From NCBI RefSeq assembly GCF_014696675.1, contig NZ_JACJQN010000018.1, positions 62,001 to 126,000 of the forward strand: a DNA stretch of 64,000 bases, read 5' to 3'. Positions 23,458 through 30,596 of this stretch are shown here, piece by piece; within the stretch, counting starts at the first letter, position 1, and each line of letters starts with the position of its first letter. This DNA comes from Phormidium tenue FACHB-1052 (GTDB lineage: Bacteria > Cyanobacteriota > Cyanobacteriia > Phormidesmidales > Phormidesmidaceae). Below the pieces are notes generated by a model that saw only the letters and a list, made by a program, of their open reading frames with translations, was not told the DNA's origin and searched no databases. Made by a program: the position numbers and the translations under genes.

Positions 23458-23606
23458 GGCGTTGCTGAATCGAGGAATGAATCTGCAAAAGCAACAGTTG
23501 CTGCATCGGCCCCCCACCCCCCCAAGTTTGGGGGACTTTGAAGTCGTCCGGTTTCCCCCAGAATTGGGGGCTAGGGGGGCAAATCGTACCGCTGATCAGC
23601 AACGCC
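23458..23606. mobile_element. 149-bp MITE-like element, copy 1, with 8-bp target duplication
   Basis: The element begins GGCGTTGCTGA and ends TCAGCAACGCC, giving perfect 11-bp terminal inverted repeats. It is flanked on both sides by GGATTTTT (23450-23457 and 23607-23614), a perfect 8-bp target-site duplication. Inside are C-run/G-run hairpins (CCCCAAGTTTGGGG and CCCCCAGAATTGGGGG) and no transposase. A second copy is at 30356-30505. It must be moved in trans by an element outside this window; the IS family was not determined. Confidence 0.88.
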
Positions 23607-23718
23607 GGATTTTTCACTTTGAACTCTGCGCAGCGGCACTAAAATAACCGTCGCCAAAGCTTTACCTTCGCCCTCCGACCCTTGCGCTAACCTAGGGGCA
23701 ATCCTACAACCGTTGCCC

Positions 23719-25026
23719 ATGCTGGATCTACAGCAGTTTTACGATGCCTGCGACCCCACCCAGCCGCTGCGGGGCAAGCGCTACTACATCGACTTCTCCA
23801 CCGTGCGCGGCGGCGACATCGTTCAAGAGCTAGAGCGCAAAATTGCTCGTCTAGCCCGCAACCGCCCCACCACCCAGCTCTTTACCGGCCATATCGGCTG
23901 TGGCAAGTCGACAGAACTCTTTCGCCTTCAGGATGCTCTGGTGCGGCGCAGCTACGAGGTGGTCTATTTTGAGTCAGACCGCGACCTAGAGATGGCCGAT
24001 GTCGAAATCTCCGACATTCTGCTCAGCATTGCCCACAACATCAGTGAGCACCTCGACAAGCTGGGCATTCCTACCCGGCCCACCTATCTGCAAGGGCTGT
24101 TTCAAAACCTGGCCGATACCCTGCGCACCCCCATGGAAATCTCCGACGTGAGCTTTTCGGCGGGCATAGCCAGCATCACGGCCTCGGCCAAGCAGAGCCC
24201 CGACATGCGCAGCCAGCTCAGGCAATACCTGGAGCCGCGCACCCGCAGCATTATCACCGCCATCAATGACGAGCTGCTCACCCCTGCCAACGATCGCCTC
24301 CAGGCCCAGGGCAAAAATCGCCTGGTAGTGATCATGGATAATCTCGATCGCATCGACAGCGCCCCTCGCTCCCAGGGACGGCTCCAGTCAGAATATATTT
24401 TTGTCGACCGGGGGGAGCAGCTCAGGCAGCTCGACTGCCACATGGTCTACACCATTCCCCTAGAGCTGATGTTTTCGAATGACCTGGTGCGGCTGTCAAA
24501 CCGCTTTGGCACCAACCCGATGGTGCTGCCCATGGTGCCGATGCAAGACCGCAAGGGCAACTCCGACGAGGCGGGTATGGCGCTGCTGCGGCAGATGGTG
24601 CTGATTCGCGCCTTTCCCGATTTCAACGTCAACCAGCGCATTGATGCGGTAGGAGAAATCTTCGACGAGCTGGCCACCCTCGATCGCCTCTGTCAGGTGA
24701 GCGGTGGCCACATGCGCAACCTGATTCGCCTGCTGGATGGCTGCCTGCGCAAGCAAGACCCGCCCTTTTTGCGCGACACCCTAGAGGCCGTGATTCGCAA
24801 CGAGCGCGATAGCTTAATGGGCCTCGTCAGCGACCACGAGTGGGATCTGCTGCTCCAGGCCGTCTCTCGCCAGGATGTGCAGGGCGACGAAGACTACAAC
24901 ATTTTGGTGCGCAGCCTGTTTTTGTACGAGTATCGCGACGCCCAGGGCCGCTGGTTTGGCCTCAACCCCCTGCTGGCCGAAACCGATCGCTACCGCAGCT
25001 GGCTGGCTCAGCAGAGTCGCCCATGA
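23719..25026 (+). CDS. STAND/AAA-type P-loop ATPase (first of a coupled pair)
   Basis: The protein has 435 residues. The Walker A is GHIGCGKST (57-65) and the Walker B is VVIMDNLDR (203-211), followed by a sensor-like strand MVYTIPLEL and a helical C-terminal half. A conserved start YYIDFSTVRGGDI precedes the ATPase core. There is no obvious nuclease, TIR, protease or membrane effector. The next gene starts inside its stop codon (ATGA overlap), so the two are translationally coupled and probably act together. The ATG at 23719 is chosen over an upstream TTG at 23713. The molecular role is unknown; regulated NTPase or defence-type switching is an inference from the STAND context. Confidence 0.8.
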   Translation: MLDLQQFYDACDPTQPLRGKRYYIDFSTVRGGDIVQELERKIARLARNRPTTQLFTGHIGCGKSTELFRLQDALVRRSYEVVYFESDRDLEMADVEISDILLSIAHNISEHLDKLGIPTRPTYLQGLFQNLADTLRTPMEISDVSFSAGIASITASAKQSPDMRSQLRQYLEPRTRSIITAINDELLTPANDRLQAQGKNRLVVIMDNLDRIDSAPRSQGRLQSEYIFVDRGEQLRQLDCHMVYTIPLELMFSNDLVRLSNRFGTNPMVLPMVPMQDRKGNSDEAGMALLRQMVLIRAFPDFNVNQRIDAVGEIFDELATLDRLCQVSGGHMRNLIRLLDGCLRKQDPPFLRDTLEAVIRNERDSLMGLVSDHEWDLLLQAVSRQDVQGDEDYNILVRSLFLYEYRDAQGRWFGLNPLLAETDRYRSWLAQQSRP

Positions 25027-27887
25027 GCGGCCAGCGTCTAGGGATCAGCGATATTGTGGCCCACAACCAAGCTGCCCTAACTGAGCTAAAGCGGGCGATT
25101 ACCCTGAGACCCAACCGCTTTTCACTGGTGCTGGCTCGGTGCAACTACTCGCGCTTGCAGCGGCTGATGGTCGATCATTTGCAGGCCTATACGCCCCTGG
25201 TGGAGCGATCGCTGCCCAGCCACGTGACGACTCTACTCCAGGCCTTGTCCCTGCCCCCTGATACCCCGCTGCCTGCGGCGCTGATGGTGACCGGCCTAGA
25301 GCATCTACAAAACGCCGCTGCGGTGTTTAAAGCCGCCAATTTGGGGCGCAACGCTTTTCCCCAGGCGCTGCCGTTTCCGGTGGTGCTGTGGGTGAGCGAC
25401 CATACCCTGACCATTCTCAACCGCCACGCCCCTGACTTTAAGAGCTTTGCCGCCGCCCCTATTCCTTTTGAATATCCCCCCGGCGAGCTGATCGACTCCC
25501 TCCACGCCAACGCCAATGATCTATTCGCCACCATGCTCTCGCTGGGCGATAGCAGCCCCCACCCTGCCGAAGCCACCCACTACCAACCCGGTTCGACCCT
25601 GCGCACCGAGCTAGAGTTTGCCCTGGCCGACATCGCCCAAACCCATGCCACCCTCGACGGTGAACTCAAGGCCAGTCTCGACTTTCTCAAGGGCCGCGAC
25701 GCCTTTAGCCGCAGCGACCTCGACGTGGCCCGCTACCACTTCGAGCAAAGCCTCACCTACTGGCAAAAATCCACCCGCCCATCAAAAAACGAAAATTCCC
25801 CAGGGCCGTCGGCCCATTCCATACGTCAAAGTTTCTCCTCCGGAGACGCTGCGCGAACAAAATTCAACATTCAAAATTCCCTAGAACAGTCTGAATCTGC
25901 CCTGCCCCCGCCCCCCGTCCCCCCATCACTCCCCCACCCCCCACCCCCCACCCCCCGCCAAAAACAAGCCGTCCTGCTCTTCTACCTCGGGGCCACCTGC
26001 CGCAGCCAGGCCATCTTGCAGCGGGTGGTCTACGATCGCATGCTCCATAAGGCCGAGAGCTACTTCACCGCCTGCCTGCGGATTTTTCGCGATCTGGAGC
26101 AGCCCGACCTGGTGGGCAAGTTCATTCATGCCTTGGCGGAGGTGCAGCAAAAACTGGGGGCCTGGCCCGCCCTGGCCCGCACCGCCCAGGAGGGGCTGAC
26201 CCTGCACCGCCAAGACCCCATTCGCCTAGCCCGCAATTATGGCTATTTAGCAGAAGTGGCCCTGGCCCAGGGCGATGCCGCCACCGCCAAAACCAGCGCT
26301 GAGCGGGCGCTGAATATTCTGGCGATCGCTGGGGCCATCACCGCCGGGGCCTCCGGCGAACCCGATGCCGAGTCATCCTGCTCGGCGCTGACGATGGCCA
26401 ACCAATATCAGCGGGGTTGGTACCTCTTTCTACTGGGGCGGGTGTATATAGCCCAAGAGCAGCCCGATGCGGCCACTACCCTGCTCGAAGCGGCTTACAC
26501 CTACACCGACCCCAAAACCGATCTGCCTCTCTACCGCAACATTCTGCAAACTCTGCAACAGCAGTACTACGAGCAAAAAAAATACCGCGCCGCCTTTGGG
26601 GTCAAGCTCAAGCAGCGCCAGGTCGATACCCGCTTCAAGCTACGCGCCTTCATTGGGGCGGGCGAAATTCAGCCCCAAGAGTCCCTGCGGAGTGGTGGCT
26701 CCATCCAGACGCTGCTAGCCACCGAGATTCAGTCCTCGGGTCGCCAGACCGATGTCGAGGCCCTCACCGATCGCCTTGAGCAGCCCCGCTATCCGCTGGT
26801 GATTATCCACGGGCCGTCGGGGGTGGGCAAAAGCTCCATTCTCTACGCTGGGCTGATGCCCGCCCTGACCAAGTCGTTTCCGGAGGGGCGATCGACTTTG
26901 GCGGTGCTGGTCAGGGGCTACCGCGACTGGCCCGATGAGGTCAACCAGGCGGTGGCCCGCGCCCTACAGCAGCAAAACGAGGCTGACGGCGACGGCATTC
27001 CCCCGGCGGCCCCCATCGACCCCATCGACCTGAGCGATCGCCTCAAGCGCCTCACCGAGCAGAGCTATCGGCAAATCGTGCTGATTTTTGATCAGTTTGA
27101 AGAATTTTTTGTCGATGCCGTCGAGCTGACCCAGCGCCGCGACTTCTACGCCTTCTTGCTCGACTGCCTCAACACGCCTTACCTCAAAGTGGTGCTGTCC
27201 CTGCGCGAAGATTACCTCCACCACCTGCTCGAAATTGAGCGCAGCTTTGACCTCGACATTCTCAACAACGACATTCTCAGCCGCGACTACCGCTACTACC
27301 TGGGCAACTTTAAGGCCACCGACGCCAAATTTTTGATTCGTCGCCTCACCGACGACGCCCACTTCTATCTCGAAACCGCCCTGATCGATCAGTTGGTGGC
27401 TGACCTGTCTACCTCCATTGGCGAGGTGCGCCCAATTGAGCTTCAGGTGGTGGGGGCTCAGCTCCAGCGTCAGGAAATCAACACCCTAGCCGAATACCTT
27501 GACCTGGGCGATTCTCCCAAGGAGACCCTGGTGCAGAATTTTTTGGGCACCGTCGTGGACGACTGCGGCGCTGAGAATGCCGATCTGGCCCGCCTGGTGC
27601 TCTACCTGCTCACCGACATCGATCGCGACAGCCGCCCCTATCGCCCCCAGCGCAGCCGAGAAGACATCGAAGAAGAAATCAAACTGCGCGGTGCCGTTTA
27701 CCAAGCCGACCAGCTCGACCTGGTGCTCGATATTCTGGTCGGCTCAGGCCTGGTGTTTTTGCTGCCCGATATCCCCATCGATCGCTACCAGCTGGTGCAT
27801 GACTATCTAGTCAGCTACGCCCGCCGAGAACCGCCTGCGCGTTTGCTCAGCAAACTGCGACGCAGCCGAGCCCTGGGACAGCACTAG
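25023..27887 (+). CDS. TPR-linked nSTAND1-type NTPase (second of a coupled pair)
   Basis: The protein has 954 residues. Residues 1-200 form an N-terminal domain with a conserved core (VVLWVSDHTLTILNRHAPDF) that I cannot name securely. A helical TPR-like region runs over about 210-560, interrupted by a low-complexity insert (256-310). The STAND NTPase follows with Walker A GPSGVGKSS near 597 and Walker B IVLIFDQFEEFF near 685, then a winged-helix-like C-terminal region. The start ATG at 25023 overlaps the preceding stop (ATGA). The low-complexity insert includes a genomic palindromic repeat and a proline-rich run, so it is probably a disordered linker gained by repeat insertion. The frame is open further upstream, but only as a shadow of the first gene. 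The function is unknown; STAND proteins generally sense a signal and oligomerise. Confidence 0.83.
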   Translation: MSGQRLGISDIVAHNQAALTELKRAITLRPNRFSLVLARCNYSRLQRLMVDHLQAYTPLVERSLPSHVTTLLQALSLPPDTPLPAALMVTGLEHLQNAAAVFKAANLGRNAFPQALPFPVVLWVSDHTLTILNRHAPDFKSFAAAPIPFEYPPGELIDSLHANANDLFATMLSLGDSSPHPAEATHYQPGSTLRTELEFALADIAQTHATLDGELKASLDFLKGRDAFSRSDLDVARYHFEQSLTYWQKSTRPSKNENSPGPSAHSIRQSFSSGDAARTKFNIQNSLEQSESALPPPPVPPSLPHPPPPTPRQKQAVLLFYLGATCRSQAILQRVVYDRMLHKAESYFTACLRIFRDLEQPDLVGKFIHALAEVQQKLGAWPALARTAQEGLTLHRQDPIRLARNYGYLAEVALAQGDAATAKTSAERALNILAIAGAITAGASGEPDAESSCSALTMANQYQRGWYLFLLGRVYIAQEQPDAATTLLEAAYTYTDPKTDLPLYRNILQTLQQQYYEQKKYRAAFGVKLKQRQVDTRFKLRAFIGAGEIQPQESLRSGGSIQTLLATEIQSSGRQTDVEALTDRLEQPRYPLVIIHGPSGVGKSSILYAGLMPALTKSFPEGRSTLAVLVRGYRDWPDEVNQAVARALQQQNEADGDGIPPAAPIDPIDLSDRLKRLTEQSYRQIVLIFDQFEEFFVDAVELTQRRDFYAFLLDCLNTPYLKVVLSLREDYLHHLLEIERSFDLDILNNDILSRDYRYYLGNFKATDAKFLIRRLTDDAHFYLETALIDQLVADLSTSIGEVRPIELQVVGAQLQRQEINTLAEYLDLGDSPKETLVQNFLGTVVDDCGAENADLARLVLYLLTDIDRDSRPYRPQRSREDIEEEIKLRGAVYQADQLDLVLDILVGSGLVFLLPDIPIDRYQLVHDYLVSYARREPPARLLSKLRRSRALGQH
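25831..25880. repeat. Palindromic repeat inside the nSTAND1 reading frame
   Basis: The hairpin TCTCCTCCGGAGA is followed by CGCTGCGCGAAC and an AT-rich AATTCAACATTCAAAATTC tail. This combination is typical of dispersed cyanobacterial intergenic repeats. Here it codes in frame for a Ser/Gly/Asn-rich linker. Confidence 0.65.
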
Positions 27888-29992: not shown

Positions 29993-30355
29993 AGCCGCGC
30001 TGTTGATCCATTGGTGTGCCAGTGACCATGCGCGTCGCCAATGCTCTAACCGCGCCCGTTGTCTCCTCATTCTACCGACCCTATTTGTTCGCTAGAGGGT
30101 TGTGCCAGCTACCTAGAGTGGCATAAAACCCAAAAAGTAGAGCACCGAAGGACAAAATTACTCGGTTTAGGGGCAATTCTCTTTCAGAGGGGCTTTCCTT
30201 CGAAATGTTTCATGAACGCCAACGCCTATAGGCCGCTAGGGCTTTAGCTCCCAGCTCTACAGCTCCATGCTGTCAAATCACTGATGCTAAAGACGATCTA
30301 CTGTGGCAGTTTCTCCTCTATTACAAGCAGTGCAAGGCCTCTACAGAAAAAAAAG

Positions 30356-30505
30356 AGCGTTGCTGAATTGAGGAATGAATCTGCAAAAGCAACAGTTGCT
30401 GCATCGCCCCCCAACCCCCCCAAGTTTGGGGGGCTTTGAAGTCGTCCGGTTCCCCCCAGAATTGGGGGGCTAGGGGGGCAAATCATACCGTTGATCAGCA
30501 ACGCC
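30356..30505. mobile_element. 150-bp MITE-like element, copy 2, with 8-bp target duplication
   Basis: It starts AGCGTTGCTGA and ends TCAGCAACGCC, so one terminal base differs from copy 1 at 23458-23606. The flanks AAAAAAAG (30348-30355 and 30506-30513) form a perfect 8-bp target duplication. By eye the sequence is over 90% identical to copy 1, including the internal C/G-run hairpins. Both copies are in the same orientation. It carries no transposase. Confidence 0.88.
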
Positions 30506-30596
30506 AAAAAAAGAGCTGCACAAATTAGCCCCACCGCACTTAGGTATCGGGAGGGTTGTAAAGACATGGCTGCTCTATGGATTGCTTGGGCTGGCG

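Follow-up and report, generated by a model that had tools for sequence, protein, structure and literature searches.

A conserved two-gene STAND ATPase unit of cyanobacteria with a predicted inactive AAA+-like domain, read as a candidate switch

A two-gene STAND arrangement has been described as the nSTAND2 counter-invader operon (eLife 2021, PMC8195603, Fig. 6C), in which an active STAND NTPase is encoded with a STAND-like protein of eroded NTP motifs and variable modules; the two are predicted to form a hetero-oligomer, and the inactive member is fused to effectors, mostly GT4 or HEPN. Inactive STAND-like domains (iSTAND, Pfam PF19995) also stand beside an active AAA+ protein in the MoxR-vWA ternary systems (eLife 2020, PMC7159879), and both iSTAND-MoxR-vWA and VMAP-C/MoxR-type gene contexts have been described as conflict systems (PMC7159879, PMC8195603). 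The BrxB-type inactive STAND of BREX (NAR 2026, PMC12839542) is compact and P-loop-like and has neither Walker motifs nor a helical lid. In single-protein sensors of the nSTAND1/Avs/bNACHT type, the N-terminus is the usual effector position. Here, we investigated two adjacent genes (called A and B for simplicity) in a window of 64,000 nucleotides, i.e. the whole stretch of DNA that was analysed, from the 5.82 Mb genome of a Nodosilinea-type cyanobacterium:

23719..25026, + strand: gene A, ATG at 23719, stop TGA at 25024-25026, ORF of 435 aa
25023..27887, + strand: gene B, ATG at 25023, stop at 27885-27887, ORF of 954 aa (Pfam, homologues)
25023..25026, + strand: ATGA stop/start overlap of A and B, seen in the sequence and retained in Nodosilinea orthologues

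A sequence-only reading had described A and B as a coupled pair, and the ATGA overlap on which this was based was confirmed at 25023-25026. Both are real genes under purifying selection, as dN is low relative to dS among orthologues (~0.01-0.1 versus 0.3-1.6 for gene A, ~0.01-0.4 versus 0.3-2.2 for segments of gene B), and gene A is the more constrained of the two. The overlap of 4 bp is kept among Nodosilinea orthologues, where it was directly seen at 11 of 14 loci. In a wider set of 70 A-B pairs it occurs in only about six, and the spacing between the genes ranges from -91 to more than +1000 bp; the overlap is thus a feature of the genus, and the fixed stoichiometry that had been deduced from it is not implied for the family. 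In many Oscillatoriales-type pairs, A and B are separated by 400-1150 bp in which no ORF was called.

The following features were assigned to gene A:

23719..25026, + strand: domain content of A, an ORC/CED-4-like STAND (AAA+) ATPase with a C-terminal winged-helix-like end, as predicted from motifs, AlphaFold2 and Foldseek
23887..23913, + strand: Walker A of A, residues 57-65 (GHIGCGKST), with no or almost no variation over alignments of 23 and 61 sequences
24325..24348, + strand: Walker B of A, residues 203-210 (VVIMDNLD), from alignments of A homologues
24700..24717, + strand: sensor-2-like SGGHMR of A, residues 328-333, with G329, G330 and R333 invariant in 23 diverse homologues

In the Walker B motif, D207 and L209 are invariant in the 23-sequence alignment and D207, L209 and D210 in the 61-sequence alignment, and the sensor 2 pattern SGG-H-x-R is conserved over the 23 diverse homologues. 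Pfam gave weak matches to AAA_16/nSTAND5 only, all below the cut-off. The AlphaFold2 model of A (pLDDT 88.9) retrieved Orc1/Cdc6, CED-4, Apaf-1 and TnsC in Foldseek, with E-values of about 1e-6 to 1e-4 for Cdc6, CED-4 and Apaf-1. A Walker A, an hhhhD-type Walker B, a sensor 2 and an ORC/CED-4-type fold, by which STAND NTPases are recognized, were all found in A. By motifs and fold A is therefore a complete ORC/CED-4-like STAND ATPase, and the conservation of the three motifs together with the model matches makes it plausible that the enzyme is active.

Gene B has a composite layout:

25023..27887, + strand: layout of B, comprising a predicted inactive STAND-like N-domain, a helical connector, a linker, TPR-like helices and nSTAND1
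25044..25472, + strand: N-terminal domain of B, residues ~8-150, five-stranded alpha/beta and P-loop-like, without Walker A (AlphaFold2, Foldseek, alignments)
25788..25976, + strand: low-complexity inter-domain linker of B, residues ~256-318, the fastest-changing part of B
25806..25891, + strand: repeat-matching stretch in the linker, in-frame, missing from most orthologues
25977..26702, + strand: TPR-like helical region of B, residues 319-560, with weak TPR_12, TPR_7 and TPR_MalT Pfam matches
26739..27812, + strand: nSTAND1 NTPase of B, residues 573-930, PF20703, E 7.8e-32
26811..26834, + strand: Walker A of the nSTAND1 NTPase, GPSGVGKS, residues 597-604, within the PF20703 match

The nSTAND1 NTPase proposed from the sequence was borne out (111.8 bits against a PF20703 cut-off of 27.1, with an intact P-loop), and the TPR-like helices were supported as well, the Pfam TPR matches being weak in the window's B and strong in many homologues. 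Like the nSTAND1/Avs/bNACHT-type sensors, B thus carries a strong nSTAND1 NTPase, to which relatives add WD40 repeats. In contrast to these sensors, the position usually held by an effector is occupied in B by a predicted inactive AAA+-like domain whose partner is a second ATPase; after nSTAND1, the window's B has no C-terminal sensor repeat. The linker has a mean identity of 58% with 48% gaps across genus orthologues; its repeat-matching stretch has four further partial copies in the genome at 84-97% identity besides shorter matches, and as only a part of the orthologues carry this stretch, the linker seems to be a site at which insertions are tolerated. Sequence searches of solved structures with A and B returned nothing informative; a choline-kinase match, which spanned the low-complexity linker and the first part of the TPR region, was disregarded.

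The N-terminal domain of B had been left without a name, and indeed no Pfam family matched the first ~250 residues, nor did residues 1-260 match the iSTAND profile PF19995 at E 0.05. The AlphaFold2 model (pLDDT 87.6) shows the helix and strand order of a five-stranded P-loop-like domain, and the matches listed by Foldseek were all AAA+ proteins (RuvB, TnsC, NorQ, ORC, clamp loaders) at probabilities of up to 0.99-1.00, with a best E-value of 1.3e-3, TM-scores below 0.45 and no PDB match at E <= 0.001. A conserved GxxxxGK[ST] motif was absent from the alignments of this domain, including one of 67 sequences, and hhalign found no profile similarity to A or to an iSTAND protein. We therefore describe the domain, at the level of fold only, as a predicted inactive AAA+/STAND-like domain. 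By published description it resembles the BrxB type; BREX genes were not seen at the window pair. A nuclease, TIR or protease fold, which had been put forward for modelling of the N-terminal 200 residues, was rejected in view of the missing Pfam match and the AAA+/P-loop-like model. Stand-alone versions of the domain (165-176 aa) stop at about the same boundary, near residue 150. Such proteins are encoded in several genomes without a nearby A (L269-L274, e.g. L269:5228-5725 and L270:5058-5561) and could possibly be decoys or adaptors. A protein of 745-817 aa with a remote B-type N-domain is likewise unlinked to A (L261:4054-6291 in the genome of the window, contig C3, L262:4134-6509 and L263:3043-5496); weaker matches of similar size to it were found in most of 17 genomes.

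The immediate neighbours of the pair are HK, lipoprotein, orf93, cysC, yihY and nif3 genes. The order lipoprotein-A-B-orf93-cysC-yihY is common, in whole or in part, to Nodosilinea genomes, and full-length A at >=85% identity was present in 19 of 25 genomes of the genus (own genome included), with a fragment in one and a few lacking A. This shared gene order indicates that the window pair has been passed on vertically and occupies a fixed position in the chromosome. Two expectations of the sequence-only reading thus failed: the operon does have housekeeping neighbours, as cysC, yihY and the NIF3-like gene follow immediately downstream, in a synteny that extends across the genus, and a variable island or mobile location was rejected for the window locus in view of the cysC-yihY synteny conserved in most genus genomes. 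A mobile element had also been noted upstream:

23458..23625, + strand: MITE-like dispersed repeat, ~90 bp upstream of A, recognized by genomic matches, strain-specific

The repeat is real; it is ~149 bp long and present in the genome at least 40 times. Among five orthologous sites aligned, only that of the window carries the MITE, the others being empty or holding something else; it is a recent, unrelated insertion outside the unit, and a functional role in the unit was rejected on the basis of the empty orthologous sites. A second MITE-like copy in the window (30357-30505, genome match C10:92357-92505) lies inside the called ORF 30298-30567, which is probably spurious.

The pair itself is conserved far beyond the genus. 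Of 69 A homologues detected in 17 genomes, 65 are directly followed by a B N-domain on the same strand, and in a separate collection 70 of 80 close A relatives are followed by B, nearly all of these B proteins having nSTAND1. Distances between A proteins and between B N-domains are strongly correlated (Mantel r 0.88 for 108 pairs and 0.86 for 65 non-redundant pairs; best of 500 permutations 0.34), a correlation of which part could come from the shared ancestry of each locus and not from contact. The co-occurrence across cyanobacteria that had been proposed as a check was thus found, and supports the view that A and B form a real, conserved two-component unit. Across the sequences compared, its invariant core is A together with the B N-terminal domain, and the C-terminus of B is variable, consisting of TPR only, TPR and nSTAND1, or TPR, nSTAND1 and WD40. 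The genome of the window contains four A-B pairs: the window pair, C2 with a B ORF of 1890 aa of the WD40 type, and C12 and C1 with B proteins of 615 and 649 aa and TPR only. As in the nSTAND2 operon, to which we liken the pair by its published description, two adjacent genes combine an active STAND NTPase (plausibly so for A) with a STAND-like partner bearing variable modules, an adjacency found in the window pair and its relatives. The inactive-STAND identity of the B N-domain is predicted at the level of fold, and B has an intact nSTAND1 in addition. Unlike the inactive member of the nSTAND2 operon, sampled B proteins carry TPR, nSTAND1 and WD40 instead of GT4 or HEPN effectors, none of which were found by Pfam (alignment scan restricted to the 25 commonest families).

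A strong A match (E <1e-50) was obtained in 84 of 386 sampled cyanobacterial genomes, all of ~3.8 Mb or larger, and genomes of ~1.6-2.5 Mb gave no or only weak matches. The named carriers of close relatives belong mainly to filamentous genera (Nostoc, Calothrix, Fischerella, Microcoleus), which leaves an impression that the pair is tied to multicellularity. Plasmid copies occur in Acaryochloris, Nostoc and Calothrix, one of the plasmid copies having HicAB-type genes, recombinases and a NACHT gene in its vicinity, and one distant relative was found in Acidisarcina. No homologues were found in phage or viral records, and PADLOC-DB 2.0.0 gave no significant match to a system component for A and only matches of E ~0.03 for B.

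Several relatives are found in contexts suggestive of conflict systems. An operon A + A' + B, in which A' is a copy of A with a C-terminal TIR domain, is present on Calothrix NIES-4101 plasmid4 and in a second genome, G063 (L080:8998-16505 and L243:3370-10670; B of nSTAND1 type by size or match). At L239:390-5609, iSTAND, MoxR and vWA (CoxE) genes are followed by a protein in which a complete A module is preceded by an N-terminal extension of 240 aa; in our reading this extension is similar to the linker that has been described for vWA effectors. A protein encoded next to MoxR and VMAP-C genes on a Nostoc plasmid terminates in an A-like module. A-like modules thus apparently sit in the effector slot of MoxR-vWA ternary conflict systems, and together with the TIR fusions these contexts place A near the output side. 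The MoxR-vWA systems share with the A-B pair, as predicted for the latter, an inactive STAND-like domain beside an active AAA+ protein, and the L239 locus has an A-like module behind one. Unlike them, the window pair has no MoxR ATPase or vWA gene among its immediate neighbours and its B N-domain does not match PF19995. No effector gene was found in or adjoining the window pair. The suggestion that the pair is a defence unit is therefore upheld in part: the TIR-fused A in two cyanobacteria and the A-like modules in MoxR-vWA systems lend it indirect support, and the fixed locus, the purifying selection and the missing effector argue against it.

The observed pairing, domain content, fold resemblance, variation and TIR fusion lead us to favour, with somewhat better than even confidence, a model in which A and B are two subunits of a STAND-type signal switch, with B sensing and A on the output side, likely in immunity or regulated cell death. 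A would dock on the inactive N-domain of B and form a hetero-oligomer. In ORC, active and inactive ATPase subunits assemble together, which serves as a model for such docking. The variable TPR/nSTAND1 part of B, with WD40 in relatives, would be the sensor; ligand binding would cause NTP exchange and assembly, and the change of state in B would be relayed through the inactive N-domain to A. Once assembled as a ring or filament, A may recruit or activate an effector; in two relatives, the TIR domain on the duplicated A would play this part. As no effector is encoded at the window locus, the effector would here act in trans or be A itself. We infer the binding of A to B, its nucleotide control and the direction of signalling, and the same applies to the likely output, immunity or regulated cell death.

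In the main rival reading, the pair is unrelated to immunity and serves the cell in regulation or signalling: it would respond to a metabolic, envelope or developmental signal, and its output would be the control of gene expression or of protein assembly. STANDs of the MalT type are regulatory switches and provide a precedent. The syntenic position next to cysC and yihY in most genomes of Nodosilinea and the purifying selection, stronger on A than on B, are more suggestive of a maintained cellular pathway than of a defence gene of fast turnover, and several paralogues per genome, the missing local effector and the lack of a PADLOC or phage link point the same way. Against this, A occurs fused to TIR, as a module in ternary conflict systems and on plasmids, and is absent from scattered members of the genus, and we regard a regulatory role as less likely though worth serious consideration. 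It is improbable that the pair handles nucleic acids, with A as an ORC/TnsC-like DNA-binding AAA+ protein and the inactive domain of B as a nucleic-acid sensor, together loading something on DNA or RNA instead of activating a death effector. The best structural matches of A do include Orc1/Cdc6 with DNA and TnsC, and it has been suggested that inactive STAND domains act as receptors of nucleic acids (PMC8195603); however, the A-B loci showed no conserved partner of the nuclease, transposase, methylase or helicase kind, and the variable part of B consists of TPR and WD40, typical protein-binding scaffolds. Hardly credible is a pair of independent genes kept adjacent by chance or descent without functional coupling: intergenic distances vary widely outside Nodosilinea and 17 of 81 B-type N-domains in the 17 genomes lie without A, as this would predict, but linkage in 65 of 69 cases over many paralogues and families and the strong distance correlation contradict it.

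In our best reading, A and B thus form a binary STAND switch with an active and an inactive member, with a predicted function and as a variant of the STAND conflict modules already known. The open-access literature contained only general STAND and iSTAND papers and no description of the pair, subscription papers being mostly outside the scope of the search. The nSTAND2 operon is the closest description; since its effectors are on the inactive partner and no paper found treats the A-B pair, we consider the latter a variant rather than wholly new. With slightly less than even confidence, we propose a widespread and hitherto undescribed binary STAND system of cyanobacteria, in which an active ORC/CED-4-like ATPase would be obligately paired with a receptor bearing an inactive AAA+ domain in the usual effector position, sensing (B), transduction (by contact of the inactive with the active ATPase) and output (A, sometimes A'-TIR) would be split over two proteins, and several pairs per genome would differ mainly in the sensor part. 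NLR-like switches appear numerous in cyanobacteria and, to our knowledge, experimental work on them is scarce. The TIR-fused versions of A would offer a direct readout, loss of NAD, for the proposed signal path that leads from the sensor in B to the output by A. If this reading is right, the pair would provide a natural, multi-copy two-protein model of how active and inactive STAND/AAA+ domains cooperate.
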